Below are positions 1,440-30,692 of a stretch of DNA of 40,737 nucleotides, in pieces. The stretch lies in the IMG/VR virus record IMGVR_UViG_3300048582_000265, positions 1 through 40,737 of that record, one strand, 5' to 3'. The position numbers were made by a program, and so were the translations under genes. Within the stretch, counting starts at the first letter, position 1, and each line of letters starts with the position of its first letter. The notes below the pieces were generated by a model, which was not told the origin of the DNA, made no database searches, and was given only the letters and a program-made list of their open reading frames with translations. Source of the stretch: a virus.

Positions 1440-1478
1440 GTCCTTTAGCGCGCGCATAAAGTTTAGGAATTTTGCTCC
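1440..1478 (+). promoter_or_regulatory. Late promoter 1 (GTCCTTT / GC-rich / TTTTG motif)
   Basis: One of four near-identical 39-base elements (also 12487, 26512 and 30654), each directly abutting an ATG. Parts in order: GTCCTTT, then GCGCGCGC, then a TAnA-like stretch, then AATTTTGC. TTTTG fits the -7 box, and TTTA at the start sits at -33 spacing. G of TTTTG is five bases before the ATG, so transcription should start at or near the A of the start codon. The GC-rich block is alien to the AT-rich surroundings and is probably an activator site. Confidence 0.8.
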
Positions 1479-2300
1479 ATGAATTTGATGCGTGAAATAT
1501 TAAATGGCGTTTGGATGCTTCCTGAAAATGAAGCCCAAAATATGTTTCCATTGATCAATCGTTTTTTGCAAGGCGAAACAATTGATTTCAAACAAATGGT
1601 TCATTCAGAATCGCCTTATGGATATTCAAATCCAAATGAAGCAATCAGCGGAAACCGTGTGGTTGTTTTGCCAATTAAAGGCACAATTCTAAAATACGAT
1701 TATTGTGGTGATATGGGAATGATTTCCCTGGATCATCATCTAAAAGAAATTATTTCTGATAATTCAGTTGGTGCTGTTGTTTTGGATATGGATTCGGGTG
1801 GTGGTGAAGCTTCATACATGCACAATGTTGCTGAAACTTTACAGAAACTAAGAGCCGAAAAACCAATTCTTGGATATTATTCAGGCTTATGCGCATCTGC
1901 ATGTTATTACATCGCATCCCAATGCACCAAATTATATGCTTCATCTCCTGTTGATCGTGTTGGTTCAATCGGTACGATGATCACAGTGATGCGTGACAAT
2001 CCAGAATTCAAAGATTTTAAATACATCGTTGAAAATGTATATGCTTCCAAATCAACTGAAAAAAACATTGAATTTGAAGAAGCAATGGATGGCAAATTCG
2101 ATGCAATCAGAACTCGTTTGCTTGATCCAATCAATGAACAGTTTATCCAAGATGTAAATGCTGGAAGAAGTTCAATAGATCAGTCAGTTTTTACAGGTAA
2201 AATCATGATGTCGGATGAAGCAATCAAACTAAATGTAATTGATGGCGTGAAATCATTGGAAGATGTGATTCAAGAAGCATTCTCACTCATAAATAACTAA
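1479..2300 (+). CDS. Prohead (head maturation) protease, S49/SppA family
   Basis: A 273-aa serine peptidase of the S49 (ClpP/SppA fold) family. SGGGE at about 106-110 forms the oxyanion-hole loop. GLCASACYYIAS places the nucleophile at about Ser140, and Lys191 (in ASKSTEKN) lies at the spacing expected for the S49 Ser/Lys dyad. These phage enzymes cleave scaffold and capsid precursors inside the prohead. The scaffold-like protein and major capsid follow directly, and the capsid has an unusual hydrophobic N-terminus that this enzyme may remove. It is the first gene of late unit 1; the ATG directly abuts the promoter. Confidence 0.85.
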   Translation: MNLMREILNGVWMLPENEAQNMFPLINRFLQGETIDFKQMVHSESPYGYSNPNEAISGNRVVVLPIKGTILKYDYCGDMGMISLDHHLKEIISDNSVGAVVLDMDSGGGEASYMHNVAETLQKLRAEKPILGYYSGLCASACYYIASQCTKLYASSPVDRVGSIGTMITVMRDNPEFKDFKYIVENVYASKSTEKNIEFEEAMDGKFDAIRTRLLDPINEQFIQDVNAGRSSIDQSVFTGKIMMSDEAIKLNVIDGVKSLEDVIQEAFSLINN

Positions 2301-2303
2301 GCC

Positions 2304-2798
2304 ATGAAAACAAATTTCTTAAAGTCATTGACTTTCAATCCTTTTAAATTAAAAACCCAAATATCTATGAAAGATGCAAAGTTATCTGCAATCCTTGGTA
2401 GAGATGTTGAAGCGGGTTATGTGCCAACAGCTCAAGAAATGTCAATCATTTTAGCTGCTTTGCCAAACCCAGCACCAACAACTCATGAGAATGCAGCAGC
2501 AACTCCAGCAGTTGCAACAACCGATGCGCCAGCTAAACCAGTTGCTGAAGCACCTGAATCAACAAGTCAAGAAGTTGATATTCAGAAAACAGTTACTGCG
2601 GCGGTTACAGCGGCGATGACTCCAATTTCTACACAATTAACTGATTTATCAAATCGATTAGCAGTTGTTGAAGGTAGCGCAGGAGCAGAAAAAACCACGA
2701 CACCTAAAGCTTCTGGAGAAGGTGCGCCAGTTAAATCTTGGTTGAATCCAGAAAACCCAATTAATGCCCAAATCGCTAAGGATTTAGGTGAGTGTTAA
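2304..2798 (+). CDS. Putative scaffolding protein
   Basis: 164 aa. It has a basic N-terminal segment, an Ala/Pro/Thr-rich low-complexity middle (about 55-90), and a predicted helix or coiled coil (DIQKTVTAAVTAAMTPIST, about 92-110, then QLTDLSNRLAVVE). Position between prohead protease and major capsid, short length and helical low-complexity make-up suit a scaffold. There is no sequence motif to prove it. An internal ATG (MKDAKLSAILG) is an alternative start. It begins three bases after the protease stop. Confidence 0.5.
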   Translation: MKTNFLKSLTFNPFKLKTQISMKDAKLSAILGRDVEAGYVPTAQEMSIILAALPNPAPTTHENAAATPAVATTDAPAKPVAEAPESTSQEVDIQKTVTAAVTAAMTPISTQLTDLSNRLAVVEGSAGAEKTTTPKASGEGAPVKSWLNPENPINAQIAKDLGEC

Positions 2799-2821
2799 AT
2801 CATTTGTAATAATTATTCAAA

Positions 2822-3946
2822 ATGAAAAAGTTTATTAATTTATTGGCTATTGTCTTTTTCTCTGCAATTACATTGCTTGGAGTATCGGCAATCGCTATTG
2901 AAGCTGGTTTCGATGTAAAACCAACCATTGCAACGGTATTAGTTGCATCAGCATTATTTGCTATTGCTAAAAAGAAATTCCAATTCGGAGTGGGAGCTAC
3001 TGGTTTGGATGTTTCTCAATTAGCAGTTGTTTTAGGTGATTACATTCAGGCTGAAACAGCAAATATTTGGAAAAAAATATATCAAGGTTTAGAGTTTGAA
3101 GCCTACATGCGTAAATTAGGCGGTAAAAGAGGAAAGTTCTCTACTTTTAAATCTAGTCAATCAGATGTATTGCAAGCTTTTCAACCGGGCTTTACTAAAA
3201 AAGGAGAAACAACATTTACTCCTTACATCAATGAAGTTTACAGAACAAAAGTTGATTTCTTGTTAGATGATATCGATGAAATCTATTCAGGTTATTTAGG
3301 CTTCATGGCTGATGAAACAATCAACCGTGCTGATTGGCCAATCACAAAATACATCATCAATGAGCATTTGATACCAAAAATCATTGAAGAATTGAACATT
3401 GCTTCAGCAAGAGGTTCATATTTGGCTCCTACTCCTGGAACAGCAGGAAACTCAATCAACATTTGCAATGGTATCTTAACTATCGTTGCTAATGAAATCA
3501 CTGCAACAAACATCACTCCAATCACTACTGGTGCAATCACAGCAGTAAATGCTTTGGATAAAATGGAAACATTCTTGGATGATATCGCTGCAATTGATCC
3601 ATTCGTTTTGGAAAAAGGTGCAATCGTTCACTGTTCAAAATCTCAAGAGCGTTTTTACAAAAAAGCATATAGAGATGCATTTGGTTCTACAAATGATCAA
3701 GCTGCTAAAAACCAAACAATGTTTGACCATTACAATGTAAAATTGGTTGGTTTAAATGCTTTTGGAAATTCAGAAAGATTATTGTTAACTGAAAAAGATA
3801 ACATCATCGTTGGTTACGATAAAATCTATACTCCTAATTCTTTCAAAGTTGAAGAGCATAGACGTGAAGTTGCAATCATGACTGACTTCCATAGAGGTTA
3901 TGGTTTCGGAACATTAGACACTGTTTTCGTTAACGACAGATCATAA
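2822..3946 (+). CDS. Major capsid protein with hydrophobic N-terminal leader
   Basis: 374 aa. Size, position after protease and scaffold, and the body (residues 55-374: mixed alpha/beta, ending in the beta-rich YGFGTLDTVFVNDRS) fit an HK97-fold major capsid protein of Bacteroidota phages. Residues 5-27 and about 33-50 are strongly hydrophobic and look like two membrane helices followed by KKKFQ. A finished capsid subunit would not keep these, so I infer removal by the S49 protease, perhaps after membrane-associated assembly. The assignment rests on context and resemblance, not on a catalytic motif. Confidence 0.75.
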   Translation: MKKFINLLAIVFFSAITLLGVSAIAIEAGFDVKPTIATVLVASALFAIAKKKFQFGVGATGLDVSQLAVVLGDYIQAETANIWKKIYQGLEFEAYMRKLGGKRGKFSTFKSSQSDVLQAFQPGFTKKGETTFTPYINEVYRTKVDFLLDDIDEIYSGYLGFMADETINRADWPITKYIINEHLIPKIIEELNIASARGSYLAPTPGTAGNSINICNGILTIVANEITATNITPITTGAITAVNALDKMETFLDDIAAIDPFVLEKGAIVHCSKSQERFYKKAYRDAFGSTNDQAAKNQTMFDHYNVKLVGLNAFGNSERLLLTEKDNIIVGYDKIYTPNSFKVEEHRREVAIMTDFHRGYGFGTLDTVFVNDRS

Positions 3947-3997
3947 ATTTTTAAGGGAGCCTTAAAACTCCCTTTCACCTTTTTTAATAAAGCAAAA

Positions 3998-4438
3998 ATG
4001 GCAAAAAAAACTATTGCAGATTTAGAGAAAGAAATCGAACTCTTAACTGCTGAAAACGCAAAATTGAAAGATCAACCTGAAACTTTAAAAGAAGTTTTGG
4101 AATCTGAAAAAGTAAAAGCACTTGAGGCTGAAATAGCAACCTTGAAAGCAACTCCAGTAGTTGACAACAAAGCTTTAGAAGCAAAGGATAAAGAAATCGC
4201 TGATTTGACTAAGAAATTAAACAAATTGACAAAAGATTTATCCACTTCAACAGGAATTGTTGATGGTTCTTTTACAGCTGAAGATGGCAAAACATATTCA
4301 TTCGACAAAGGAGTTGTGAAGTTCCATTTTAAAGGTGAAATGCACGAAAGTGTTGAAGCCTTGAAAAATAAGGAATTGATGCAAGAATTGGTTGAGATGA
4401 AAGTTGGCTACTTAACCGAAGTTAAACCTTCTAAATAA
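3998..4438 (+). CDS. Coiled-coil virion-associated protein
   Basis: 146 aa. Residues 1-80 are a heptad-rich, Lys/Glu/Leu coiled coil (IADLEKEIELLTAENAKL onward). Residues 85-146 form a small globular part with beta strands (SFTAEDGKTYSFDKGVVKF). It lies directly downstream of the capsid gene, preceded by a small possible hairpin at 3953-3977 (AGGGAGCC...AACTCCCTT). A head decoration or minor head role is plausible from position only. Confidence 0.6.
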   Translation: MAKKTIADLEKEIELLTAENAKLKDQPETLKEVLESEKVKALEAEIATLKATPVVDNKALEAKDKEIADLTKKLNKLTKDLSTSTGIVDGSFTAEDGKTYSFDKGVVKFHFKGEMHESVEALKNKELMQELVEMKVGYLTEVKPSK

Positions 4439-4446
4439 TTACCAAA

Positions 4447-4971
4447 ATGGAAGTAAAAGGATATAGCCGTAATTGCGGCACAAGAAACAATCCAGGGACT
4501 AAAAACTTCATGTATTTAGTTTGCCCTGAAGATATCGATGTATTTCCAGCAATGAAAACAACTACTGGAACTGGTGATTCAATCACGGTTGATGGTAACA
4601 TTGTTTTGAAAGCTGGAAAAGCTTGGGCGAAAGTCGAAATCATCCCAAACACAGGAAGAATCAAACATGATGGCGTTGGTGTGATCACCTCAAAAGCGTT
4701 CAACAACATGTATGAATTCAAGTTGCCAACTGATATCGCATCAGATGAATGGGCTGAACAACATCAAAATGCTTGTTTAGTTGCAGCAGTTCCACAAAAA
4801 AATGGACGTTTCAGATTACTTGGTAATATTGAAATTCCTGCATCAATCGAATCGGCAACAGCTGATCGTGGAGCATCTAATGCAGATGAAAGTTCTTGGG
4901 CGTTCCAAATCATGGATGAAGTTGGTGCTGTTGCTCCTTACTACGATGGAACATTTGACTTAACTGTTTAA
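4447..4971 (+). CDS. Structural protein, tail-tube or decoration candidate (paralogue A)
   Basis: 174 aa and all beta-like. It is clearly related to the protein at 38137-38706. Shared blocks, in order, are FPA-x-KTTT, DGNIVLKAGK, NTGRIKH-x-GVG and DIASDEW. The C-terminal pattern (GRFRLLGN, then PASIES, then ADESSW, then an aromatic-Gly-T-x-D ending) reminds me of tail-tube-like proteins of Bacteroidota phages. Placement in the capsid unit would equally allow a head decoration protein. Which paralogue forms the tube cannot be settled from sequence alone. Confidence 0.5.
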   Translation: MEVKGYSRNCGTRNNPGTKNFMYLVCPEDIDVFPAMKTTTGTGDSITVDGNIVLKAGKAWAKVEIIPNTGRIKHDGVGVITSKAFNNMYEFKLPTDIASDEWAEQHQNACLVAAVPQKNGRFRLLGNIEIPASIESATADRGASNADESSWAFQIMDEVGAVAPYYDGTFDLTV

Positions 4972-4982
4972 TTGTTTCAATC

Positions 4983-5201
4983 ATGGGAGTTGTTAAGTAT
5001 CTAACTGAGAAAGAATTCAACGCTGTTTTGCCAAAAGAGGTTGCAGAAAAATTCGAAATCAAAAAAATGGAGAAAAGAACTTCAACGAAGTTTCATCATC
5101 CAAAATTTGGTTTAGTTGATTTGAGCAAACTATCAATTGCAAAAGCAGAATATTTAGTTAGCCAAAAGGCAGACTTCATCGAGTTGAAAAAGAAAGCCTA
5201 A
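4983..5201 (+). CDS. Small conserved-looking virion operon protein, 72 aa
   Basis: A basic 72-aa protein (MGVVKYLTEKEFNAVLPKE) with a predicted beta hairpin in the centre and a helical Lys-rich C-terminus. It has no recognised domain. It sits 11 bases after the tube or decoration candidate and 4 bases before the next start, so it is part of late unit 1. Its small size and place between structural and packaging genes would fit an assembly chaperone or connector, but nothing proves it. Confidence 0.6.
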   Translation: MGVVKYLTEKEFNAVLPKEVAEKFEIKKMEKRTSTKFHHPKFGLVDLSKLSIAKAEYLVSQKADFIELKKKA

Positions 5202-5205
5202 CGTT

Positions 5206-5904
5206 TTGATTGAAAAATTAAAATTGTTTTTAAATGGAGCATTGTCTTTTGAAGAGGCAAGCTCCATTTTTTTGATTGTATGCAAAAACAAAACTTTGGC
5301 CAACAACATTATGCGTGGCGAAGTAAACGATTTTAAGATTGAAAAACTCAAATACGAAATTGGCAAAATTGTAAATCAACATCCTGCTGCCTTAAAAATC
5401 AATACCGATATTTTATCCAAAATTGAAATTGTTCCGGCACAATCAAAACCAACAGTTGAATATGTGATTTCATCAGAGCAAAACGATGAAGCACCAGCAG
5501 AACCAAAAACACACATTTACCTTCCAAGCGAAAAACCAAATCAAACGGTTTTAGGCAGAATTGAATCCGAACGAAAAGAATTGTATCAATTGCGAGGCCA
5601 TTTGCATGGAAGATTGCACCAAATTGATGATGTAACTGAGTCTTATGAAGTTGCCAAACAAATCATCGAAATACAACCCAAAATTGATGTTCTGAATGAA
5701 GAGCTTACAATTTTAAAAAATGGCGGTATGCCAAGCAGATTTTTAAAGAAAACAGTTTCAGCACAGGAATTTGTTACTGCAAAAAATCTCAAACAATACA
5801 TTGCAAGAGATAAAAAGAAAATGGAGCAGGCAACTTCTCCAGCAGAAAAAAAACGTTACCATGATCTAGTTGCTAAACACGAAACTAAACTTAAATCTTT
5901 ATGA
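5206..5904 (+). CDS. Hypothetical helical protein upstream of terminase, 232 aa
   Basis: The best start is TTG at 5206 (MIEKLKLFLNGALSFEEAS), four bases after the preceding stop; the first in-frame ATG is about 35 codons later and would cut off a well-formed helix. The protein is charged and mostly helical. Residues about 110-165 (RIESERKELYQLRGHL onward) and the C-terminal 35 residues look like coiled coil. It overlaps the small terminase gene by 4 bases. Function unknown; a packaging accessory is possible. Confidence 0.65.
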   Translation: MIEKLKLFLNGALSFEEASSIFLIVCKNKTLANNIMRGEVNDFKIEKLKYEIGKIVNQHPAALKINTDILSKIEIVPAQSKPTVEYVISSEQNDEAPAEPKTHIYLPSEKPNQTVLGRIESERKELYQLRGHLHGRLHQIDDVTESYEVAKQIIEIQPKIDVLNEELTILKNGGMPSRFLKKTVSAQEFVTAKNLKQYIARDKKKMEQATSPAEKKRYHDLVAKHETKLKSL

Positions 5905-6488
5905 GTGAAGAATTAGAAAAAAGAGAAGTTTTATTCGATAAAATTCAACGATATTACAACGAAAGTGGAAGCCTCACACCATCAGAAGAGGAAATCTGCG
6001 AACGTTGGATATTGGCATTTTCTTTACTTAAACAACATAAATCTAAGCCAAATGCAATAAAACGCTATTTGGAAATTCACAAAGTATCATTAAATACTGC
6101 ATATCAAGATTTCAGAAATGCCGAACTTATTTTTGTTCCATTAGATAAGATTTCAAAGGATTTGCAACGTTTAATCATGATTGAACAAATCGACACCGAA
6201 ATTGCCAAATTGCAGGAAAAACAACAACAAGAAAATATTTCTGAAAGTTTGTACACCAATTTGCAACACGAAATAGGCCGACTATTGGCCACAAGAGTAA
6301 AAGCAACAGGAATTGAACACACGGACCCAAATCTTCCTGATTTCTCTAAAATTCAACCACCACGTTTCGAAATCAATTTGCCACCTGGTCAAATCCAATT
6401 GTTGAAATTATTTGTCAAATCAGGGGTTGTTGATATATCCGATTTCAGAAACAATATTGATGATGCTCAAATTGTAGACAATGACTAA
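5901..6488 (+). CDS. terS: Terminase small subunit (putative)
   Basis: 195 aa. The N-terminal half contains a helix-turn-helix-like stretch (KPNAIKRYLEIHKVSLNTAY, about 52-72), followed by a long helical region (DTEIAKLQEKQQQ, about 98-130) suited to oligomerisation and a Pro-rich tail. It precedes and overlaps the large terminase by 8 bases, the standard arrangement. Small subunits recognise the packaging site and regulate the large subunit. The call rests mainly on context and domain make-up. Confidence 0.65.
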   Translation: MSEELEKREVLFDKIQRYYNESGSLTPSEEEICERWILAFSLLKQHKSKPNAIKRYLEIHKVSLNTAYQDFRNAELIFVPLDKISKDLQRLIMIEQIDTEIAKLQEKQQQENISESLYTNLQHEIGRLLATRVKATGIEHTDPNLPDFSKIQPPRFEINLPPGQIQLLKLFVKSGVVDISDFRNNIDDAQIVDND

Positions 6489-7986
6489 CGAGCAAATACT
6501 CAGAATCAAGTACAATTTGCCACAGTTGTGTGTTTACCTATCAACGGCAAAAGTTATCATCCTTGAATGGGGACGTGGTACAGGAAAATCTTTCATCTTA
6601 GCCAAAAGAATGATTGATTGTGTGCATCAATTGCCACGGTCAACAGGTTTTCTGTACGGTGAATCATACCAACAAATCAAAACAAGAACGCTTCCTTCAA
6701 CCATTAAAGGATTGGAAGAACATGGCTACAAATTAGGTCAACACTTCTTTGTTGGCACACCACCACCCAAAGATTGGCATTGGCCACTACCTTATGAAAA
6801 GATATTAGACTACAAAAACGTGATGATTTGGTACACGGGTGCAGTAGTCAAATTCATATCACAAGATGGAAACGCATCTTCAGGGCGTGGAGGAAATGGC
6901 GATTGGTTGTTGGGTGATGAAGCATTGTTGTTTAATGGCGAAAAGTTTATGACAGATGCATCAGCAACAATTCGTGGTGGCTTAACAAACATTGCTTATT
7001 ATCCTGATGGCACATGGAAATACTTTAAAGATTGCCATTTGCACCATTCTATAATGTTGGCATCTTCCACTCCACTGAGTGTTGAAGGTCAATGGTTCTT
7101 GAAATATGAAGAGGCAGCACGCAAATTAGATTCAACAACGCTATTCCTTAGAGCATCATCCATTGATAACATTGAGAACCTTGGAGCCGATTGGATTGAA
7201 AAGCAACGTGAAGTAATGACTGACTTCCTTTTTGATGCTGAGATTCTAAACATTAGAGTATCAACAGTCAAGGATGGATTTTATCCTAAGCTAATGGCAA
7301 AGCTTCATGAGTATAGTATCTATCGTGATGGTGATCTAAAAGATTGTAGCTTAGATACTGATTTAGCATCAGGTCAACCATTGATATGTGGTGTAGACTG
7401 GGGTGCAAACATCAACTGCTTAGTTGCATCACAACGCCAAGGCAATGAGTTAAAGGTATTGAAGAATCTATTTGTTAAATCACCAAAGATACTGGATGAC
7501 TTAGCACAGGAGTTCATCGACTACTATGAACCACACAAAGCAACGTGCAATGTTGTGAAGATTTGGTATGATCCATCGGGTAACGTATCAACAGCCAATA
7601 GTCGATTGACCTATGCCAAACAGTTTGAAACAATTTTGCGCACAAATGGATGGAACGTTGAACTCATGACACGTGGCACACAGAACCACAGCCATGAAGA
7701 TAAGTACAACTTATGCAACATTCTGTTTTCTGAAACAGATACCAGGTACCCACACATCAGATTCAACAAACATAATTGCAAAGAGTTGTTGATCTCTATG
7801 AAGAATGCACCAGCCAAACGCGGTACCGTTTCAAGCATACAGAAAGTGAAAGCCAGTGAGAAGAATCGTTCCATGTTGCAAGAGCATGCCACGCACTTCA
7901 GTGATACATTTGATTTGATTGCAGTGGGTATGTTTATTCATATTTACAAATCGATTGGCTTGATACCGATGAATCAGGTTCGATGA
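6481..7986 (+). CDS. terL: Terminase large subunit
   Basis: 501 aa: an ATPase plus an RNase H-like nuclease, the DNA packaging motor. Walker A is GRGTGKS at 31-37 after the strand VIILEW. Walker B is WLLGDE at about 142-147. A coupling motif ASSTPL lies at about 195-200. The nuclease domain shows the first acidic residue in CGVDWGA (Asp306), a second in IWYDPSG (Asp364) and a C-terminal acidic pair in HFSDTFDLIAVGMF (Asp475/478). Length is normal for the family. It is the last gene of late unit 1; the portal lies 4.8 kb away, not next to it. Confidence 0.92.
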   Translation: MTNEQILRIKYNLPQLCVYLSTAKVIILEWGRGTGKSFILAKRMIDCVHQLPRSTGFLYGESYQQIKTRTLPSTIKGLEEHGYKLGQHFFVGTPPPKDWHWPLPYEKILDYKNVMIWYTGAVVKFISQDGNASSGRGGNGDWLLGDEALLFNGEKFMTDASATIRGGLTNIAYYPDGTWKYFKDCHLHHSIMLASSTPLSVEGQWFLKYEEAARKLDSTTLFLRASSIDNIENLGADWIEKQREVMTDFLFDAEILNIRVSTVKDGFYPKLMAKLHEYSIYRDGDLKDCSLDTDLASGQPLICGVDWGANINCLVASQRQGNELKVLKNLFVKSPKILDDLAQEFIDYYEPHKATCNVVKIWYDPSGNVSTANSRLTYAKQFETILRTNGWNVELMTRGTQNHSHEDKYNLCNILFSETDTRYPHIRFNKHNCKELLISMKNAPAKRGTVSSIQKVKASEKNRSMLQEHATHFSDTFDLIAVGMFIHIYKSIGLIPMNQVR

Positions 7987-8204
7987 TGCCCTTGCGCACA
8001 TATCCCTAAATTTTTGCTAATTGTTGCAACAATTTAGAACACCCATCGCCGAGGTTACTCTCCGTATTTGTCTTTTCGTGCTAAATTTTTACTTATAATT
8101 TTCAGAATATCAACAAATTAATGTCTTTTTGCAAGTATTTCCTTTCATCGTGTTAGTTTTATATTACATTTTTAGTATATTTGCAAAACAACAATTGCAA
8201 CAAG
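7987..8204. other. Intergenic region with palindrome and promoter
   Basis: These 218 bases hold an inverted repeat CTAAATT/AATTTAG (8006-8012 and 8031-8037) that contains a perfect 12-base palindrome TTGTTGCAACAA (8021-8032), then AT-rich DNA and a promoter at 8153-8183. There is no T-run after the hairpin, so it is not a classical terminator. It might instead be a protein-binding site or a weak processing site at the end of late unit 1. Confidence 0.5.
8153..8183 (+). promoter_or_regulatory. Bacteroidota-type promoter for the 8205 gene
   Basis: TATATTTG (8176-8183) is a perfect -7 TAnnTTTG. TTAG (8153-8156) sits 19 bases upstream, where -33 TTTG is expected. The predicted start of transcription is near 8189, giving a leader of about 16 bases. 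This is the normal host-type promoter, without the GC-rich block of the late promoters. Confidence 0.65.
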
Positions 8205-9071
8205 TTGAAAAAAATTACTATCGATTCAAAAAATTACAAGCTGATTTCTTCTTATGCTGAGATGAATCAAAAAACCTTTTTTAAGGTTTGCCAAATTCGT
8301 TCGCAGTTTTTATTTGAGAATTCTCAGCCAGAAGGATATCATGCTGTAAAAATGGAAGTGTTTTCTGCGCTTTCAAACATTCCGTATCGAAAAATTTTAA
8401 AAATAAACGCTTTGCAATGGGCTGATTTGTTGCCTCACATTGATTTTGTGTTTACGGATGCACCCGATTTGGAAAAGAATTTCCTAGCAACGATTAAAAT
8501 TGGTGGTTTATTTGGCAGAAGATTCTATACTTCTGAAGGTTTTATTGATAAATCTAATTTGCTGGAGTTTTGCGATGCAGATACTGCCTTCATCAATGCA
8601 GGATTGGAGGAAAGTATGGAACCAATTTACAAGTTGTGTGCAATCATTTACCGACCAAAGCGCAAAGATTTAGCAGAATTTAAACGCTCCAATAAATGGA
8701 ACGGTGACATTCGCGAAGAATATAATCAGGTTAAAGCTGTTGATCGCTCAAAATTGTTTAGGAAAGCACCAGTTTATAAGCTTGTTGCAATATTCCTATA
8801 TTATTGGAGCTACCGACAAAAAGAGTTGATTAACAGCCCTGATTTAAAAATATTGTTTGAAGGTGAAAGCAAAGTGAAAGGTTTGGAAATTGGTTGGTTG
8901 GGAACGATGTTCAATATTTCAGGCAAAAACCATGGAACTTTTGAACAAGCCGTGCAACAAAATTGGCAATTGATTTTGTATGATATCGCCAATTCTATTG
9001 TGTTGGCAAAAAGCCAAGAGCAGGCACGAATTGACGAAACATTGTTTAACGAATTAAGAAATAGATCATGA
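8205..9071 (+). CDS. Hypothetical protein, 288 aa
   Basis: The best start is TTG 8205 (read MKKITIDSKNYKLIS), just after the TATATTTG promoter. An in-frame TTG at 8181 lies inside the promoter and cannot be transcribed from it; the first ATG (8262) would lose the N-terminal strand. The protein is mostly helical with a basic middle (YRPKRKDLAEFKRSNKW). No domain recognised. It leads a three-gene unit with two small membrane proteins and overlaps the next by 4 bases. Confidence 0.65.
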   Translation: MKKITIDSKNYKLISSYAEMNQKTFFKVCQIRSQFLFENSQPEGYHAVKMEVFSALSNIPYRKILKINALQWADLLPHIDFVFTDAPDLEKNFLATIKIGGLFGRRFYTSEGFIDKSNLLEFCDADTAFINAGLEESMEPIYKLCAIIYRPKRKDLAEFKRSNKWNGDIREEYNQVKAVDRSKLFRKAPVYKLVAIFLYYWSYRQKELINSPDLKILFEGESKVKGLEIGWLGTMFNISGKNHGTFEQAVQQNWQLILYDIANSIVLAKSQEQARIDETLFNELRNRS

Positions 9072-9265
9072 TAACAATTGCTAGAATTTTATTGCTTTTG
9101 ATAGTAGGCTTGTTTGTGGGCTTGCTGATTGTTTCTACTTGCAGAAGTTGCGAAAGTAAAAAACCAATTTTTGCCAAAATTAGATCAGTGCAAGTTCCTG
9201 AATCTATTTGCGAGGCAAAAGAAAATGAAGTTTCACTTAAAAACGAATATTATGTGGAGAATTAA
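9068..9265 (+). CDS. Small membrane protein, 65 aa
   Basis: One transmembrane helix at residues 4-24 (ARILLLLIVGLFVGLLIV), then Cys-rich STCRSC and a hydrophilic tail of about 35 residues. The Cys at about 25 is not in a canonical lipobox, so this is more likely a single-pass inner-membrane protein than a lipoprotein. It overlaps both neighbours and is probably translated in coupling with them. Function unknown. Confidence 0.6.
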   Translation: MITIARILLLLIVGLFVGLLIVSTCRSCESKKPIFAKIRSVQVPESICEAKENEVSLKNEYYVEN

Positions 9266-9437
9266 ACGAATTATTAGAAACCTTCTTTTCCTTATTGGAT
9301 TGGGTTCTTTGGTGACATTTATAGTATATTCTTTTTCAACAAAAGGTTGGCTGTTTATGGTTTTACTAATGCTGATTTCAGTTTGGTATATGGTTAAAAA
9401 TGCAGAAGAAGTTGATTCTAATTTGGAGGATTTTTGA
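9252..9437 (+). CDS. Small membrane protein, 61 aa
   Basis: I place the start at ATG 9252 (MWRIKRIIRN), inside the end of the previous gene; the frame is open further upstream but only as a shadow of that gene. There are two predicted transmembrane helices (about 10-27 and 32-48) with a basic N-terminus and an acidic C-terminus (EEVDSNLEDF). Function unknown. With the preceding gene it could form a membrane pair involved in host takeover or exclusion; that is speculation from context. Confidence 0.55.
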   Translation: MWRIKRIIRNLLFLIGLGSLVTFIVYSFSTKGWLFMVLLMLISVWYMVKNAEEVDSNLEDF

Positions 9438-9440
9438 GTT

Positions 9441-9490
9441 ATAACGTACGATGATAAAAGCCGTTTCAATGGCATTTTATCATGTGTTAT
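9441..9490. repeat. attC-like imperfect hairpin
   Basis: The outer arms ATAAC/GTTAT (9441-9445 and 9486-9490) enclose unpaired bases. An inner stem ATGATAAAAGCC (9451-9462) pairs with GGCATTTTATCAT (9471-9483), leaving one extra T unpaired; the loop is GTTTCAAT. AAC/GTT core triplets, an unpaired spacer and an extrahelical base are features of integron attC sites. It lies just before the 9554 gene, and another attC-like element follows that gene. Confidence 0.6.
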
Positions 9491-9553
9491 GTACAGTATG
9501 GCGAGTTTAAAGATAAACTAAAATAGAATATAAATTTAAAAAAGAAAAGAGCG

Positions 9554-9943
9554 ATGGAAAAATTAGAAGTAAAACATTTAGCACCATATTTACCTTATGG
9601 GTTGAAAATGTACACAAAGGCAGGTGTTTGGGATTTGGTTGTTTACAAGGCACAAGCGGAATATAAGTATGGTGTAATGATTGGAGAAGCTATGAATTGT
9701 GGTGTAAAACCAATACTTAGACCTTTATCAGAATTAAAATTTAGCAAAGATTTTATTTTAAAATTTGGTGGAGATAATCCAAATAATCTAAAAATGTGTA
9801 AATTAGATATTGATGATTTAGTTAATAACGGATTGGAATTTGAAACATATTACGGTTACTATGAATGGTTACTTGAAAATCATTTTGATGTGTTTGGATT
9901 AATAGATAAAGGATTAGCAATTGGCCATAATTTAGTAGAATAA
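9554..9943 (+). CDS. Conserved phage hypothetical protein, 129 aa
   Basis: 129 aa starting MEKLEVKHLAPYLPYGLKM. Proteins opening with KHLAPYLPYGLK are, from memory, frequent in Bacteroidota phages and prophages, without known function. No membrane segment or catalytic motif is seen. The gene is isolated: attC-like hairpins lie upstream (9441-9490) and downstream (10011-10062), so it has the outline of a one-gene cassette. No promoter of its own is obvious. Confidence 0.7.
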   Translation: MEKLEVKHLAPYLPYGLKMYTKAGVWDLVVYKAQAEYKYGVMIGEAMNCGVKPILRPLSELKFSKDFILKFGGDNPNNLKMCKLDIDDLVNNGLEFETYYGYYEWLLENHFDVFGLIDKGLAIGHNLVE

Positions 9944-9948
9944 GTGCG

Positions 9949-10002
9949 TTGGCTTTTCTTTTTCCTTACGATGAATATTAATCGAAGCGAGAAGTTAAGC
10001 CA
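9949..10002. repeat. Imperfect inverted repeat TGGCTT/AAGCCA
   Basis: TGGCTT (9949-9954) pairs with AAGCCA (9997-10002), with partial pairing between (CGAT at 9969-9972, ATCG near 9981-9984). It immediately precedes the second 52-base hairpin repeat. It may be a degenerate second attC-like site or a weak terminator without a T-run; it is too imperfect to decide. Confidence 0.3.
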
Positions 10003-10010
10003 TATTGTAC

Positions 10011-10062
10011 ATAACTGCCTAAATAAGCGTCTGCGAAGTTGCGCTTATTTTAAGTTATAAGT
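10011..10062. repeat. 52-base hairpin repeat, copy 2 (attC-like)
   Basis: Exact copy of 1114-1165, 8.9 kb away. The inner stem AAATAAGCG/CGCTTATTT is intact. The outer stem is shorter here (ATAACT/AGTTAT), because the bases before 10011 differ from copy 1. Exact identity over 52 non-coding bases in an otherwise diverged genome points to recent duplication, recombination or selection on the element. Confidence 0.75.
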
Positions 10063-10083
10063 CTTACAACAAAAATAAAGTAT

Positions 10084-10572
10084 ATGAAAGATAAAGTTTT
10101 ACCAACAACATCAGATTTCCAGCATAATGGATGTTGTCACTCGCTTGTTGCAAATTTTAAAGGAATTGCATGCGATAAGCCAATAGAACCACCAACTTCT
10201 TATTTAATTATTCCAGCCGAAATGGATTTTAATAAAAATGAAGTTATTGAAGCAATTAAAGAAATAAGGAAAGAACGTGGCCAGAACCAAAGAATTATTG
10301 TTGTAGGTTCAAATCATGCGATTGTTGAAGAGGTTTTTAAATTATATGAAGATTTAAAAAATGAAGATGCAATATTGGCAACAAGAGGTTGTGGAAAGCA
10401 CCATAGTGCTGAAAAATTAGCAAATCAAATGTTGAAGTTTTCCGCTACTTGCAATGAAGCTAGTAGAAGCATTAAAATTTTATCAAATCACATAGATAAT
10501 TTAGGCAAAGTTGCGGTGATTTCTAAACCAGAACATCCTTTCCAAAAATTTATTGGTAAGAAAAAATATTAG
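10084..10572 (+). CDS. Hypothetical protein, 162 aa
   Basis: 162 aa with a Rossmann-like run (NQRIIVVGSNHAIVEEVFK, about 77-96). Several Cys/His residues lie in the N-terminal part (NGCCHS, GIACDK) and at RGCGKHH (about 112-118), which might bind metal. No named family recognised. Two bases separate it from the next gene, so it is in an operon with the membrane peptide and the SSB-tailed protein. Confidence 0.65.
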   Translation: MKDKVLPTTSDFQHNGCCHSLVANFKGIACDKPIEPPTSYLIIPAEMDFNKNEVIEAIKEIRKERGQNQRIIVVGSNHAIVEEVFKLYEDLKNEDAILATRGCGKHHSAEKLANQMLKFSATCNEASRSIKILSNHIDNLGKVAVISKPEHPFQKFIGKKKY

Positions 10573-10574
10573 TT

Positions 10575-10763
10575 ATGAATATACAATTAATCTTACATGT
10601 AGTTGCTGGATGCTTCATTTACAACATCATCATCAAAGCAATAGGCAATATGATTTTTAAGAGAATATTTGGCAAAGATGAAGATGAATTTACATCGGTA
10701 ATTAGAAAAACTTTTGATGAACGATTAAAAGAAAAACAGGAACAAAAAGCAAACCATGAATAA
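10575..10763 (+). CDS. Small membrane protein, 62 aa
   Basis: One hydrophobic segment (about 4-30, ILHVVAGCFIYNIIIKAI) followed by a strongly charged helix (DERLKEKQEQKANHE). It overlaps the SSB-tailed protein gene by 8 bases. Function unknown. Confidence 0.55.
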   Translation: MNIQLILHVVAGCFIYNIIIKAIGNMIFKRIFGKDEDEFTSVIRKTFDERLKEKQEQKANHE

Positions 10764-11121
10764 CATCAGTACAAACTTAAATCTTTCAGCACTCAAGCAT
10801 GCTAGAAAAAAAATGAAACTTCAAAACGGAAATGAAGTTGAATGTTTAGTTATACCAATCGAATTGAACCACCTTTTTCAAGGAAAAGAAGGAGCAGTTT
10901 ATTTAAACACAATTGGTTTTCCGATGAAGGAGCGAAAGGAACACGAAACGCACATCATCAAGCAATCTTTCAAAAAAGAGTTTTTGGATACACTAACAGA
11001 AGAAGAGCGCAAATCTTTGCCAATTTTTGGCAACCATTCTGTTTATGATGGTCCAACTGCTCAGGTGAATAATGTTTCCATGGAAAGTGGTGGCGAAAAA
11101 GACGATGATTTGCCATTCTAA
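10756..11121 (+). CDS. Putative single-strand DNA binding or SSB-mimic protein
   Basis: 121 aa of predicted beta-rich fold (NGNEVECLVIPIELNHLF, then GAVYLNTIGF) ending in GEKDDDLPF. Bacterial SSB proteins end in an acidic tip such as DDDIPF that recruits replication and repair proteins. The tip, the length and a possible OB-like body suggest an SSB or SSB-like replication partner. The primase-helicase at 19886 ends in DEDLPF as well, so two replication proteins may dock on the same host site. Bacteroidota phages carry similar short proteins of unproven function. Last gene before the terminator at 11209. Confidence 0.5.
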   Translation: MNNISTNLNLSALKHARKKMKLQNGNEVECLVIPIELNHLFQGKEGAVYLNTIGFPMKERKEHETHIIKQSFKKEFLDTLTEEERKSLPIFGNHSVYDGPTAQVNNVSMESGGEKDDDLPF

Positions 11122-11144
11122 CTACCGTCTGAGCAAACGGTGGT
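11121..11144 (+). other. Hairpin at the end of the SSB-like gene
   Basis: ACTACCGT (11121-11128) pairs with ACGGTGGT (11137-11144), with one G-T wobble and an 8-base loop. It overlaps the stop codon of the SSB-like gene and is followed by TTATAAAAAAAC, a poor T-run. It may stabilise the 3' end or act as a weak terminator backed up by the stronger one at 11209. Confidence 0.4.
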
Positions 11145-11208
11145 TTATAAAAAAACTATCTGCATTTTTTTGGCTTCATATCCCTATTTTTTGTGCAGAT
11201 ACAAAAGG

Positions 11209-11234
11209 CTCTCTCTTAACCGAGAGAGTTTTTT
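11209..11234 (+). terminator. Rho-independent terminator
   Basis: CTCTCTC (11209-11215) and GAGAGAG (11222-11228) form a 7-bp stem with loop TTAACC, followed by TTTTTT. It ends the 10084-11121 operon just before the promoter of the structured leader. Confidence 0.85.
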
Positions 11235-11246
11235 CTAAAAAAGTTC

Positions 11247-11276
11247 TTTGATTTTTAATTTTTATGCGTATGTTTG
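11247..11276 (+). promoter_or_regulatory. Promoter of the structured RNA / 11432 gene
   Basis: TTTG (11247-11250), 18 bases, then TATGTTTG (11269-11276): both boxes match the Bacteroidota consensus. Transcription should start near 11281, exactly at the first base pairs of the long stem of the structured RNA. This coincidence supports both calls. Confidence 0.7.
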
Positions 11277-11279
11277 TCG

Positions 11280-11411
11280 TGACCCAATAATTTAGATAAC
11301 GATCTGAATATTTTATTATTAACGATAAACCGCTTCCATCTGTGGTAGCAATGTCCGAAAGGCTTGTAACTCTAATTCTCTGAATTATTGGGTCAACCCT
11401 TTTGGAAGCGG
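11280..11411 (+). ncRNA. Candidate pseudoknotted RNA (leader or small RNA)
   Basis: Stem P1 pairs 11280-11296 with 11379-11395: 17 bp, all Watson-Crick except one G-U. Inside its loop CCGCTTCCA (11330-11338) is a perfect complement of TGGAAGCGG (11403-11411), which lies outside P1, so the order is A-B-A'-B', an H-type pseudoknot. A GAAA-capped hairpin with CC/GG (around 11355-11362) lies within P1. The promoter at 11247 would start the RNA at P1. The 3' strand of the pseudoknot covers a possible TTG start (11402) of the next gene, so translation control is one option; a free small RNA is another. No known RNA family recognised. Confidence 0.6.
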
Positions 11412-11431
11412 CGTATAAAAACTTTTTTGAG

Positions 11432-11701
11432 ATGACCCGAAAAAAAGAAAAAGCGCAACAATTACAGCTGGTACTTGAGCGCATCGAAAAACGAGGAATT
11501 GATATTCTTCCATTACTAAATTTTGTGAATGATGAAATTGGAATTGAACTGCTATTTCAGTATCTTCCAAAGCTTCACGACAACTACTTAAATTTATTTC
11601 TACTCAATGAAGATGATTTTATTGATAAAAAAGAAGTAAGAACTCATTTGCTTATGCTTTCAGGAATGAAAGAAGCAATTTACACAGGAATAGCTAATTA
11701 A
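11432..11701 (+). CDS. Hypothetical helical protein downstream of the structured RNA
   Basis: 89 aa from ATG 11432 (MTRKKEKAQQLQLVLERIEKR). An in-frame TTG at 11402 would add ten residues and would place the start codon inside the pseudoknot. The protein is almost wholly helical with a basic start and acidic end; no family recognised. It appears to be controlled by the leader RNA at 11280-11411 and forms a one-gene unit between that RNA and the outer-membrane protein gene. Confidence 0.6.
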   Translation: MTRKKEKAQQLQLVLERIEKRGIDILPLLNFVNDEIGIELLFQYLPKLHDNYLNLFLLNEDDFIDKKEVRTHLLMLSGMKEAIYTGIAN

Positions 11702-11711
11702 AAATATTTAT

Positions 11712-11719
11712 TAACTTTG
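11712..11719 (+). promoter_or_regulatory. -7 promoter element for the outer-membrane protein gene
   Basis: TAACTTTG matches TAnnTTTG and lies 14 bases before the ATG. No good TTTG is visible 19-20 bases upstream, so the -33 part is weak. With the terminator at 12454 it would make the 11734 gene an independent transcription unit, able to be expressed from a prophage. Confidence 0.45.
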
Positions 11720-11733
11720 ATAAAAAAAACGAT

Positions 11734-12426: not shown

Positions 12427-12453
12427 ATTATTGTTTCATTCTTAATTTACATG

Positions 12454-12484
12454 AAGCTCATTCTTAATCGAATGGGCTTTTTTT
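12454..12484 (+). terminator. Rho-independent terminator after the moron
   Basis: AAGCTCATTC pairs with GAATGGGCTT (one T-G wobble) around loop TTAATC, followed by seven T. It ends the outer-membrane protein unit and isolates late promoter 2, which starts three bases further on. Confidence 0.9.
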
Positions 12485-12486
12485 GT

Positions 12487-12525
12487 GTCCTTTCGCGCGC
12501 GCACGTATATCCGCAATTTTGCACT
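12487..12525 (+). promoter_or_regulatory. Late promoter 2
   Basis: GTCCTTT, CGCGCGCGC, ACGTATAT and AATTTTGC occur in the same order and spacing as in the other three late promoters, with GTCC exactly 39 bases before the ATG at 12526. Bases 12494-12510 alternate pyrimidine and purine without a break. It drives portal, adaptor and lysis genes. Confidence 0.85.
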
Positions 12526-24783: not shown

Positions 24784-24793
24784 ATTGAATGTG

Positions 24794-25674: not shown

Positions 25675-25675
25675 G

Positions 25676-26457: not shown

Positions 26458-26463
26458 TCTCAC

Positions 26464-26491
26464 AGCCTTCCATTTCGGAGGGCTTTTTTTT
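26464..26491 (+). terminator. Rho-independent terminator of the early operon
   Basis: AGCCTTCC and GGAGGGCT form an 8-bp stem with one T-G wobble and loop ATTTC, followed by nine T. It separates the early operon from late promoter 3. Confidence 0.9.
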
Positions 26492-26511
26492 TGCTTTCAG
26501 CTTATAATTGA

Positions 26512-26550
26512 GTCCTTTCGCACGCGCACGCATATACCGAATTTCGTATT
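26512..26550 (+). promoter_or_regulatory. Late promoter 3
   Basis: GTCCTTT, CGCACGCGC, ACGCATATA and AATTTCG; GTCC is exactly 39 bases before ATG 26551. The -7 box differs by one base (TTTCG for TTTTG). The central part alternates pyrimidine and purine over about 19 bases. It drives the gp10-like protein and the tape measure. Confidence 0.85.
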
Positions 26551-26943
26551 ATGCAAAAAGCCTCATTCAGATATTACGACCTCGAACATGCTAGAAAACT
26601 AGCAAAGGAAATTGGTGCGCAAACTATTTCTGAAATGATGTTTAGCATCACAAAATTAGGTTTAGTAGAAAAAGGAGAATTGCTCAAATCTTTGCGTGCC
26701 ACACCTCAAAAATCAGAATTTGACGAAATAGACAGAATCAAATTCAAATACAATTTTTATGGTGTTTTCTTAGATGTTGGTACAAAAAAAATCAAAGCAA
26801 CCTATTGGCGAAATAGCATTCTCAATCCTGCGTGGATAAAAGCAAATGAAGTTTTCAACGCATACTATGCCGAATTAATTCAGAAAGAAATTGCAGAAGA
26901 TGCCGCACAAGCATTGGATGCTAACATCAAAATAAGAATGTAA
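26551..26943 (+). CDS. Tail completion (HK97 gp10-like) candidate
   Basis: 130 aa, helical at both ends with central strands (FKYNFYGVFLDVGTKK). YGVFLDVG resembles the tyrosine-rich signature around the beta-hairpin of HK97 gp10-type head-tail or tail completion proteins. It directly precedes the tape measure with a one-base overlap. Assignment is tentative, from length, motif and position. Confidence 0.4.
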   Translation: MQKASFRYYDLEHARKLAKEIGAQTISEMMFSITKLGLVEKGELLKSLRATPQKSEFDEIDRIKFKYNFYGVFLDVGTKKIKATYWRNSILNPAWIKANEVFNAYYAELIQKEIAEDAAQALDANIKIRM

Positions 26944-29900
26944 TGGCGAGTAGTACTATTAAAATTGAAGGCAAAATTGCTGGTGCCGCATTGGATGAAC
27001 TTAAAAAGAAAGTTACCGATTTAAGACGTGAAGTAAGCCAATTAGAAGTTGGTTCTGCCAAATACAATGCAAAAGTTGGTGATCTCAAAAATGCAAACCA
27101 AGCACTCACAGCCCACCGAAACGAAATCCGTGGCATCGGAGCATCATACGGTCAAGCGCAAACAGGAATCAAGGGCTTAATGATGCAATTTGCACCAATG
27201 GCTGGCGGTTTGGCAATTGCAGGCGCAGCAATCGGTGGCATCACATCGGCTGTTTCTTCCTGGTACCAAAACAACAAAGCCTTAGAAAAATCACTTTCAA
27301 GCTTGCAATCCTTAACAGGAGCATCAACAGAAGATATGAAATTCTACAAAGCTGAAGCCATTGCCATGGGTAAAACTTCAACGATGTCGGCATCTCAAAC
27401 AGTTGAAGCTTTCAAACTCATTGGTTCTGCACGTCCCGATTTATTGAAAAATAAAGAAGCATTGGCAGAAGTTACCAAAGAAACCGTTGTTTTGGCAGAA
27501 GCAGCCGAAATGGATTTGGGTTCTGCTGCCAATTCGATGGCAGGCGCAATGAACCAATTCAATTTGGGTGCTTCAGAATCGGGAAGAATTATAAACGCTT
27601 TGGCAGCAGGATCAAAAGAAGGTGCAGCCGAAATTTCAGATGTAACACTTTCAGTTGAAAAATTTGGTGCAGTTGCTTCAGCAAATAATGTAACTTTTGA
27701 AGAATCGGTTGCTTTGACTGAATTAATGGCCGAAAAGAACATCAAAGGAGCAGAAGCAGGAACGCAATTGCGAAACGTATTGTTGAATGTTGCCACAGCA
27801 TCAGCATTGCCAGATGAAGCGCAAAAAGCCATGGCAAAATATGGCGTAAATATCGAAATGGTGATGAACAAAGCCATTCCTTTAAAAGACCGTTTGCAAG
27901 AATTGGCAAAAGTGCAAAAGGATCAAACGGCATTAGTGAAAATTTTCGGAAAAGAAAACGTTGTTGCCGGGCAAACCATTTTAGGCAATATTTCAAAATT
28001 TGATTCACTCACAAAAGCAGTTACAGGCACAAATGTAGCCTACGAACAGCAACGAATTAACAATGATAATTTGGATGGTGATTTAAAGAAAATGAATTCT
28101 GCTTGGGAAGGTTTCACACTTTCAATTGGCGGTGCTGGAGAATCAATGCGTGGATTGGTTCAGGTTGGTACCGATGTGTTGAATTGGACTTCTGATTTGA
28201 TCACTGGTTTAAAAGAAGCCGATTCCATGAAATTGGAAACTGTTTTCTACAAATTTGCTGATGCCTTAACACTTGGGATTGGTCCACTTCATGATTTTTA
28301 TGAAGAAATGATTCGTATCAATGAGATATCTATGGATGTAATTGATTCCATAAAAGGTGAAGTTGAAGCAAATGTAACCTTAACAGAATCTTTGGCACGA
28401 AATAATGAAATGCTTGCATCTGGAAATTTAACTGCTGAAGAAGCTGCACGAATCAATAATGAAAATGAGCAGATAATTTCAGCCTTAACAGAAAAATATC
28501 CTGAACTCACAGCCAATTTGGATTTGCATAAACTTTCGCAAAAAGGCGCAATTGCCTTACAAAAGGAAATGAACAAAGAATTGCTAAATCAGGCATTGGC
28601 ATCGGCTCAGGCAGCAGAAGCAGAAAGATTACTTGCAAGTGTAGTTGAAAGCACTATGAAAGTTCAAATGTTGAGTGCCGAAATTAGGAAATTAGAAAAA
28701 GAAGGTGGAGTTCTCAACATGATCATGATTGGAACCAAAGCCAAAGAACTTGCAGCTGCAATGAAAGAAAGCCAAACTTCACAAAAACAATTGATGAATT
28801 TGGGAAATACAATGGCAGGAGTTAAGAAAAACTTAGAAGGAATTGATTTCACTTTTGGTTCAAAATTTAAAATTCAGTCTGATATAATTGCAGATTCTGA
28901 AAGGAAATTAGCTAATGCAAATGAACTTTTAGCAAAAACAAATGATCCTAATAAAAGAAAAGCAATTGAAAGTTTCATCAAAGGTTTAGAAGCCAGCATT
29001 AAAAACGCATCCAAAGGTCAACAATCTGCCTTGGATGATTTGTTGGCCAAAAATCAGCAAGTACTTGAATCTGATGAAAAAACTACTGCGAAACTTGGCG
29101 CAAATGGTAAAAAGAAAAATGATACTGTCAAGAAAAACGCTGAAAATCTTGCAAAAGAATTAGCCAAATTAATTGCTGATACTGAGAAATTAGCATCCAA
29201 TTTGAGTAATCAAACCATTTTAGATGCTTTCACCGATGAAAAGCAAAAAGAATTGTTTGCGCTACAAAATTCGATTGAAGAAAAATATAAAGCAGAAATC
29301 GAAATGGCCATGAAACTCATGGCACAAAAAGGAGAAATTGGCATCAAAGCAACAGAACAATACAACCGTTTGATTGCCTTGGAAGATGAAGAATATGAGA
29401 AAGGCAAAGCGGAAATTGAAGAGAAATACCGTAAAGAAAAATATGCCAAAGATTATGAGAATGAGAAAAATGCCAATCTTCAATTTTTGGCACAACAAAA
29501 TTCCTTGCAAGATGCAATCATTGATCTAAAAGTTACCAAAGCAAAAGCGGCACTTTCAGCTGTTCGTGATGGTGATTTGGCAGGATATGCTCAAGCAAAG
29601 GCAGATTTAGAAAAAGCACTCCAGGAACAAGCCGATTTGGAAAAAACACGCAAGTTGGAAGCCTTAATGGATCAGCGTGATGATGGCATTATTTCCGTTC
29701 AAGAATATAATCTTAGAAAGGAAGAATTAGAACTTCAGCATCAGCAAAATATCATTGATATCAATGCGCAATCTGCTGAGGAACTAAAAGCAATTGATAA
29801 TGACAGAGCAGAAAATGCTTTGAATAATATCAGTAAAATATTAGATATTTCTAAGCAGTTTTCTGATGCTGCATCACAACGTGAATTGAACGATTTGAAC

Positions 29901-30632
29901 CAAAGCCAAAACAGAGAGCAAAAGGCATTGGATGAAAAATTAAAAAACAAACTGATTACAGAAGATCAGTACAATGAAGAAAAAAAGAAACTTGATGCAG
30001 AAACTGCTAAAAAGAAATATGAAATTGAATTAGACCAATTCAAGAAAAACCAAGCCTTTGCAACTGCTGAAGCAATTATTCAAGGAGCATTGGCAATTGC
30101 AAAAGTTACAGCGCAAACTGGAGTTGGTGCAGCGTTTGCAGTTCCATTGGTTATTGCTTCAACTGCAGCACAATTGGCAATGATTTCGGAACAAGCACCT
30201 CCTGAAGCTCCACAATTTGCAGAAGGTGGTTATGCTGATGTTACTGGTGCAAAAGATGGTTTAAGATACAGAGCACAACGAGTTGGAAAACTGAAACCAG
30301 GATTCACGCCAAATCGTCCAATTTTGGGTTTATTTGGCGAAAAAGGAACAGAATATGTTGTGCCGGCACATTTGTTACGTAAACAGCCAGTTGCCAATTA
30401 TGTTTCTATGATTGAAGCCGAACGCCTTGGCCGTGTGCCACAATATGCAGAAGGTGGTTTCACTGGTGCGCCTCAAATGGGTGGCGGTGATATTTCTGGC
30501 TTATTGAAACAAAACAATTTACTCTATTCTGAATTGATTAGAATTTTGCCAAACCTTGGTGTTTATTTTTCTGATAAAAATATTGAAGATCTAGATAAAA
30601 ATAGATCACGTTTCAACGCAACTAAAAATTGA
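26943..30632 (+). CDS. Tail tape measure protein (TP901 type)
   Basis: 1229 aa. Residues 1-60 are coiled coil. A hydrophobic segment at about 78-100 (MAGGLAIAGAAIGGITSAV) is followed by a TP901-like core (about 120-330: MGKTSTMSASQTVEAFKLIG, ALAEVTKETVVLAEAAEMD, FEESVALTELMAEKNIKG). Long heptad-rich regions follow (about 560-1030) and a second hydrophobic stretch (about 1040-1075, GVGAAFAVPLVIASTAAQ) with Gly-rich ends (FAEGGYAD; YAEGGFTG). It sets tail length; by rule of thumb 1229 residues predict a long flexible tail (about 0.15 nm per residue). Longest gene in the genome. Confidence 0.92.
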   Translation: MASSTIKIEGKIAGAALDELKKKVTDLRREVSQLEVGSAKYNAKVGDLKNANQALTAHRNEIRGIGASYGQAQTGIKGLMMQFAPMAGGLAIAGAAIGGITSAVSSWYQNNKALEKSLSSLQSLTGASTEDMKFYKAEAIAMGKTSTMSASQTVEAFKLIGSARPDLLKNKEALAEVTKETVVLAEAAEMDLGSAANSMAGAMNQFNLGASESGRIINALAAGSKEGAAEISDVTLSVEKFGAVASANNVTFEESVALTELMAEKNIKGAEAGTQLRNVLLNVATASALPDEAQKAMAKYGVNIEMVMNKAIPLKDRLQELAKVQKDQTALVKIFGKENVVAGQTILGNISKFDSLTKAVTGTNVAYEQQRINNDNLDGDLKKMNSAWEGFTLSIGGAGESMRGLVQVGTDVLNWTSDLITGLKEADSMKLETVFYKFADALTLGIGPLHDFYEEMIRINEISMDVIDSIKGEVEANVTLTESLARNNEMLASGNLTAEEAARINNENEQIISALTEKYPELTANLDLHKLSQKGAIALQKEMNKELLNQALASAQAAEAERLLASVVESTMKVQMLSAEIRKLEKEGGVLNMIMIGTKAKELAAAMKESQTSQKQLMNLGNTMAGVKKNLEGIDFTFGSKFKIQSDIIADSERKLANANELLAKTNDPNKRKAIESFIKGLEASIKNASKGQQSALDDLLAKNQQVLESDEKTTAKLGANGKKKNDTVKKNAENLAKELAKLIADTEKLASNLSNQTILDAFTDEKQKELFALQNSIEEKYKAEIEMAMKLMAQKGEIGIKATEQYNRLIALEDEEYEKGKAEIEEKYRKEKYAKDYENEKNANLQFLAQQNSLQDAIIDLKVTKAKAALSAVRDGDLAGYAQAKADLEKALQEQADLEKTRKLEALMDQRDDGIISVQEYNLRKEELELQHQQNIIDINAQSAEELKAIDNDRAENALNNISKILDISKQFSDAASQRELNDLNQSQNREQKALDEKLKNKLITEDQYNEEKKKLDAETAKKKYEIELDQFKKNQAFATAEAIIQGALAIAKVTAQTGVGAAFAVPLVIASTAAQLAMISEQAPPEAPQFAEGGYADVTGAKDGLRYRAQRVGKLKPGFTPNRPILGLFGEKGTEYVVPAHLLRKQPVANYVSMIEAERLGRVPQYAEGGFTGAPQMGGGDISGLLKQNNLLYSELIRILPNLGVYFSDKNIEDLDKNRSRFNATKN

Positions 30633-30653
30633 TGAAAAGTTTATTGTAAATAA

Positions 30654-30692
30654 GTCCTTTCGCACGCGTATGTGTATAACGAATTTTGCAAT
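30654..30692 (+). promoter_or_regulatory. Late promoter 4
   Basis: GTCCTTT, CGCACGCGT, ATGTGTATA and AATTTTGC; GTCC is exactly 39 bases before ATG 30693. The GC-rich alternating tract is present. Unlike promoters 1-3 there is no terminator in front of it; it starts 22 bases after the tape measure stop, so read-through from unit 3 is expected. Confidence 0.85.

Follow-up and report, generated by a model that had tools for sequence, protein, structure and literature searches.

Four near-identical elements in the viral record IMGVR_UViG_3300048582_000265 (40,737 nt, analysed at full length and termed the window here) quite probably serve a temperate siphophage with a Bacteroidota host as late promoters. 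As judged from their sequences, each would carry a box occupied by a phage protein (best candidate: the ORF 583-1110 product) and would give rise to leaderless mRNAs. Comparison of related phages indicates that the elements belong to a class of late promoters found throughout this family of temperate Bacteroidota phages, and we regard this class as real. This reading builds on the elements and their rigid spacing, on their family-wide recurrence in front of structural genes and co-occurrence with the candidate gene, and on the finding that host chromosomes do not have them as a class.

The window has the appearance of a complete temperate siphophage genome. An exact direct repeat of 123 bp is present at its ends (1-123 and 40615-40737), and the record is therefore probably a complete circular genome. 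Integrase and a CI-like repressor are encoded on the minus strand, and an early block with a primase extends from 18519. Four late units are each located behind one of the four elements (P1 to P4), and hairpins before P1, P2 and P3 close the preceding unit:

264-271, plus strand: ordinary -7 box TACATTTG, 5 nt before ATG 276 of the small operon with the candidate activator gene, no GTCC box upstream
583-1110, plus strand: candidate late activator gene (175 aa, undescribed family), just upstream of P1
1316-1346, plus strand: terminator-like hairpin downstream of the candidate activator gene, before P1
1440-1478, plus strand: putative late promoter P1 (box 1440-1446, -7 box GAATTTTG at 1467-1474, ATG 1479)
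1479-7986, plus strand: late unit 1, head protease, capsid and terminase genes
12453-12480, plus strand: terminator-like hairpin, T tract adjoining P2
12487-12525, plus strand: putative late promoter P2 (box 12487-12493, -7 box CAATTTTG at 12514-12521, ATG 12526)
12526-16083, plus strand: late unit 2, pre-portal, portal, adaptor and following genes
26464-26484, plus strand: terminator-like hairpin upstream of P3
26512-26550, plus strand: putative late promoter P3 (box 26512-26518, -7 box GAATTTCG at 26539-26546, ATG 26551)
26551-30632, plus strand: late unit 3, neck-like protein and tape measure genes
30654-30692, plus strand: putative late promoter P4 (box 30654-30660, -7 box GAATTTTG at 30681-30688, ATG 30693)
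30693-40198, plus strand: late unit 4, tail genes followed by further genes, ending with that of a possible lysis protein (39704-40198, role suggested by its sequence only)

Several other features of the genome were recorded. Copies of GTTGGCAC or GTTGGCAG, about ten in all and in either orientation, are located in the non-coding region formed by 40415-40737 and 1-90, together with an AT-rich palindrome (40443-40498); these iteron-like repeats possibly mark a replication origin or a control region that precedes the operon of the candidate activator. Between the terminase and portal units, approximately eight ORFs (9068-12426) have no homologues in 143 related loci or genomes and look like accessory cargo; an ordinary -7 box is found upstream of this block at 8176. 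A 296-aa protein of unknown function (8181-9071) has homologues in all 13 near-complete relatives. Homologues in all 13 were likewise found for a protein family encoded twice in the window, once in the head unit (4447-4971) and once in the tail unit (38137-38706). GTCCCGA occurs three times in 17260-17419 near the integrase and repressor genes and five times genome-wide (0.07 expected), possibly as attachment-arm or operator repeats.

A coordinate check placed GTCCTTT at 1440, 12487, 26512 and 30654, all on the plus strand, and the distance from the G of GTCC to the ATG (1479, 12526, 26551 and 30693) is 39 nt in 4/4 elements, exactly as the sequence-only reading of this DNA had it. AATTTTG or AATTTCG follows with its final base 34 bases past the G of GTCC, so the TT(T/C)G ends five bases before the ATG in every case, as had also been noticed. 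A pattern search gave these four elements compared to 0.07 expected, and none of 100 shuffled sequences reached four. Searching both strands of the whole window for GTCCTTT-N24-TT(T/C)G-N4-ATG yielded four matches on the plus strand and none on the minus strand. The one further GTCCTTT (35457) is intragenic and lacks the rest of the element. Chance or a recent duplication as the source of the four sites is ruled out by the shuffles together with the signal across the family. Two of the ATGs, 12526 and 30693, fall within longer mechanical ORFs; the starts at +39 find support in the independently made annotation of a Porphyromonas phage, where starts agree with this distance. In this phage (phage019a), four elements are found at the protease, pre-portal, neck and tail positions, and two annotated starts, 19707 and that of the neck gene at 28457, are located exactly at +39.

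Relatives were collected with portal and terminase searches, which led to Polaribacter phage Leef_1, Cellulophaga phage Ingeline, Flavobacterium phages laban6-1 and 6H, Bacteroides phage BT-TP2, Porphyromonas phages and Mea-Yong924, and with a terminase alignment, which added 69 GTDB genome loci and 80 loci on viral contigs. Where hosts are named, they are nearly always Bacteroidota. Word counts were made on the terminase strand of 127 non-redundant loci. Among the 267 GTCCTTT words in these loci, the final G of TT(T/C)G was located at exactly +34 in 116, with few at any other offset, and an ATG was found at +39 in 66 cases, the largest class (mean per offset approximately six). A second class of ATGs lies at about 49-52 from the GTCC, and approximately 42% of the family elements have their ATG at +39. 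Since the ATG distance falls into two classes while the spacing between GTCC box and -7 box is constant, the 34-nt box-to-box spacing is the rigid feature (33 nt in FPSV-F7). The distance to the ATG, which had been taken as the conserved property, is not invariant across the family and is a consequence of frequent leaderless starts. The conserved block GCRCGCGY, thought to replace the -33 box, did not hold up as a general trait either: only the nearest relative has something similar, and the exact GC-rich pattern had no match in the viral contigs.

A search independent of the box, in which words at a distance of 31 nt before TT(T/C)G were counted, returned GTCCTTT, GTCCTTC, GTCCTAT or GTCACAA as top word in a large share of the loci; in a number of loci, partly owing to their shortness, this search gave no repeated box. 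With a relaxed pattern containing A at +28, 227 intergenic sites before a gene starting with ATG were obtained, 153 of which had GTCCTTT, and only eight sites were intragenic. At positions not used for selection, 170 distinct elements had T at -1 in 89% and A at +28 in 91%. The latter corresponds to A-11, base two of TAnnTTTG, the -7 box of Bacteroidota; the TTTG or TTCG of this box is present in the elements by selection. T-12 is found in only 42% of the family elements and is missing from all four window promoters. The other host element, the TTTG at -33, is replaced by TTTC or TTTA after the GTCC in the window, and in the family G directly follows GTCCTTT in only 9 of 168 elements; its replacement, as first read from the window, is supported. 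The window promoters have TGTCCTTT at -40 to -33, with the variant AGTCCTTT at P3 and P4.

The elements classified in relatives precede pre-portal, terminase-side, protease and tape-measure genes, and none of them was assigned to an integrase or primase. Genome G001 harbors four elements, at the four module starts known from the window. The motif total in 14 host genomes was not above that of a reversed-pattern control, whereas the matches concentrate on prophage contigs, which have 5 of the 6 matches of one genome; in others, single contigs have 4 or 5 of them. The GTCCTTT element is not a host promoter class. The motif thus adjoins structural units in related phages and clusters in prophages rather than being scattered at random over host genomes, which supports the proposal that four structural units are transcribed from these elements as late promoters. 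A Zunongwangia prophage (G011:C18:18875-18955) has a divergent pair of late promoters, formed by two elements placed back to back on opposite strands.

In F. johnsoniae, the -7 box consists of T-12, A-11, T-8, T-7, T-6 and G-5, followed by 4-5 nt to the transcription start, and published host promoters show little -33 signal (PMC6847099). The -7 box of the window promoters is 4 nt away from the ATG, matching this spacing; the published geometry puts the start at +39, the A of the ATG, in 4/4 promoters, so that the late mRNAs should be leaderless. Leaderless late transcripts, as proposed in the sequence-only reading, are accordingly a prediction of the -7 geometry. With a start at +39, the GTCC is placed at -39 to -36 and the TTT at the usual position of the -33 TTTG. 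Leaders of more than 10 nt are predicted for 87% of the F. johnsoniae transcripts, and 5' UTRs shorter than 10 nt amount to only about 3.7% in B. thetaiotaomicron (PMC7366714). Since host mRNAs normally have such leaders, the lack of a leader in late mRNAs would be a phage trait. An excess of A at +39 was withdrawn as proof of the start site because the A bias in elements without ATG is equally high at +40 to +44; we infer the start on the ATG from the -7 geometry only.

The box differs even between phages infecting one host genus. Among Flavobacterium phages, the box varies and recurs in the genome that contains it: L190 has TGTCCTTTTT, laban and L095 have ATGTCACAA and L192 has ATATCACAA. 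In L070 (Pustulibacterium), which is related, the box is ATGTAACA. The flanking bases show greater similarity within than between phages (z approximately 4), an effect which weakens with distance from the box. Because the boxes differ among phages of one genus and the flanks are alike within a phage, the reader of the box is taken to be phage-encoded. The accompanying regulator-like gene adds to this, making the phage factor that had been suspected from the window likely.

This gene is ORF 583-1110. The ordinary -7 box before its operon, lacking a GTCC box, is as expected for a gene made before the late genes. Iterative searches recovered homologues from all 13 near-complete relatives and, as a single copy in each, from 86 of 143 loci. 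The gene mostly precedes the protease gene at a short distance; in Leef and MeaYong it does not adjoin the protease gene, and in several loci it is encoded on the minus strand, where elements are found too. The family (64 members) has no Pfam or NCBIfam name, and seven members match a PHROG of unknown function. AlphaFold models (mean pLDDT 87 and 88) predict an alpha/beta N-terminal part, a long helix and C-terminal helices, one of which is basic; R138 in this helix is present in 62/64 members. Fold and sequence searches for a known relative gave no confident PDB match, and the one match below E 0.001 in a viral library was the Leef_1 homologue of the ORF itself. The family alignment has no segment of sufficient conservation for a profile scan of viral contigs. 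DNA binding of the candidate would therefore rest on the basic C-terminal helix. Box and activator sequences co-vary between clades. In partial Mantel tests, the correlation was not significant when controlling for terminase distance (r = -0.04, p = 0.65) or portal distance, and weak when controlling for protease distance (p = 0.03). Since these tests do not separate the activator from shared ancestry, ORF 583-1110 is the likely rather than the proven reader of the late promoter box, and it may act either as an activator or through modification of sigma.

Other readings of the box were weighed against this one. That a different phage product reads the late promoters, namely a LuxR-type regulator, a small-terminase-like protein or a phage sigma factor, is unlikely, though it is the most probable of the alternatives. 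LuxR-type or response-regulator-like genes are indeed present in the early operons of Leef, Ingeline, laban and MeaYong, but LuxR-type genes occur in only 5 of the 13 near-complete genomes and not in the window, and a LuxR-type regulator was rejected as common activator for this lack of universality. The other genes as widespread as ORF 583-1110 resemble virion or packaging genes (head-, packaging-, portal- and neck-like) and are located mostly inside the late units, and retention of the host -7 box argues against a new sigma factor. Reading of the box by a host factor, or as a variant -33 element for the host sigma with no need for a phage factor, is improbable: the -7 box is that of the host and the TTT of the -33 TTTG is partly kept, yet matches cluster on prophage contigs without enrichment across host genomes, boxes vary among phages of one host genus, and the -33 signal of published host promoters is small.

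Of similarly low probability is a bound factor which loads on the polymerase and antiterminates like lambda Q instead of activating initiation. Its position at the promoter, near the polymerase, would permit this, but the hairpins upstream of P1-P3 end the prior unit and are not situated just downstream of the start, and the Pfam scan of the 64 members gave no match to a Q family. Least probable, and very much so, is the box as an operator at which a repressor silences the late genes in the prophage. The phage is temperate and encodes a CI-like repressor; repressors of this family are, however, found in only 5 of the 13 near-complete relatives, and a box replacing the -33 element fits activation better.

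Under the preferred reading, in which start site, DNA binding, activation and timing are all predictions, host RNA polymerase with its primary sigma factor (sigma-ABfr type) would read the -7 box. With the -33 TTTG missing, the box at -40 to -33 would have to be occupied by the phage DNA-binding protein before the polymerase can start. The product of ORF 583-1110 would be made earlier from its ordinary promoter and would then switch on the four late units together, and transcription starting on the ATG would result in leaderless late mRNAs.

A comparable arrangement exists in phage Mu, where promoter PI precedes the protease gene. Mu activator C switches the late promoters Plys, PI, PP and Pmom (PMC4461284). 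Both systems would have a single phage activator, here a candidate, for a small set of separate late promoters; they differ in sigma class and box and in the leaderless starts predicted here. No Mor/C family domain was matched in the 64 candidate-activator members with Pfam or PHROGs. The late promoter class probably resembles the Mu C regulon in its mode of action, although its candidate activator is unrelated. ArpU, RinA and Ltr are small proteins of Gram-positive phages, encoded near packaging genes, which activate late transcription. The candidate is likewise a small phage protein near packaging genes, in another host phylum; none of the 64 members matched these families in Pfam, NCBIfam or PHROGs, a result of sequence matching which leaves room for remote kinship. 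An Ogr/Delta zinc-finger domain was not matched by Pfam in the 64 members. Compared to sigma-ABfr promoters (-33 TTTG, -7 TAnnTTTG), the elements share A-11, T-8, T-7, T/C-6 and G-5 of the -7 box and its predicted distance to the start, while the -33 TTTG is exchanged for TGTCCTTT, T-12 is weak or missing and the mRNAs are predicted to be leaderless (PMC6847099, PMC7366714). A published description of the motif or of late gene control in these Bacteroidota phages was not found in the literature consulted, the coverage of which is incomplete. We give even chances to the broader proposal that ORF 583-1110 is the first member of an undescribed late activator family distinct from Mor, Ogr and ArpU/RinA. 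In this proposal, such proteins would take over the host primary sigma at promoters that lack a -33 box, and temperate phages across the Bacteroidota would make leaderless late mRNAs in this way, with a matched box in each lineage.

Phages and prophages of this kind are common in gut and marine bacteria. The outcome for them is a searchable promoter signature and a candidate activator in each phage, together with the prediction of leaderless late mRNA in hosts whose mRNAs mostly have leaders. Late units and prophages could be annotated from sequence alone, and the elements are a possible source of phage-controlled promoters for Bacteroides and Flavobacterium.
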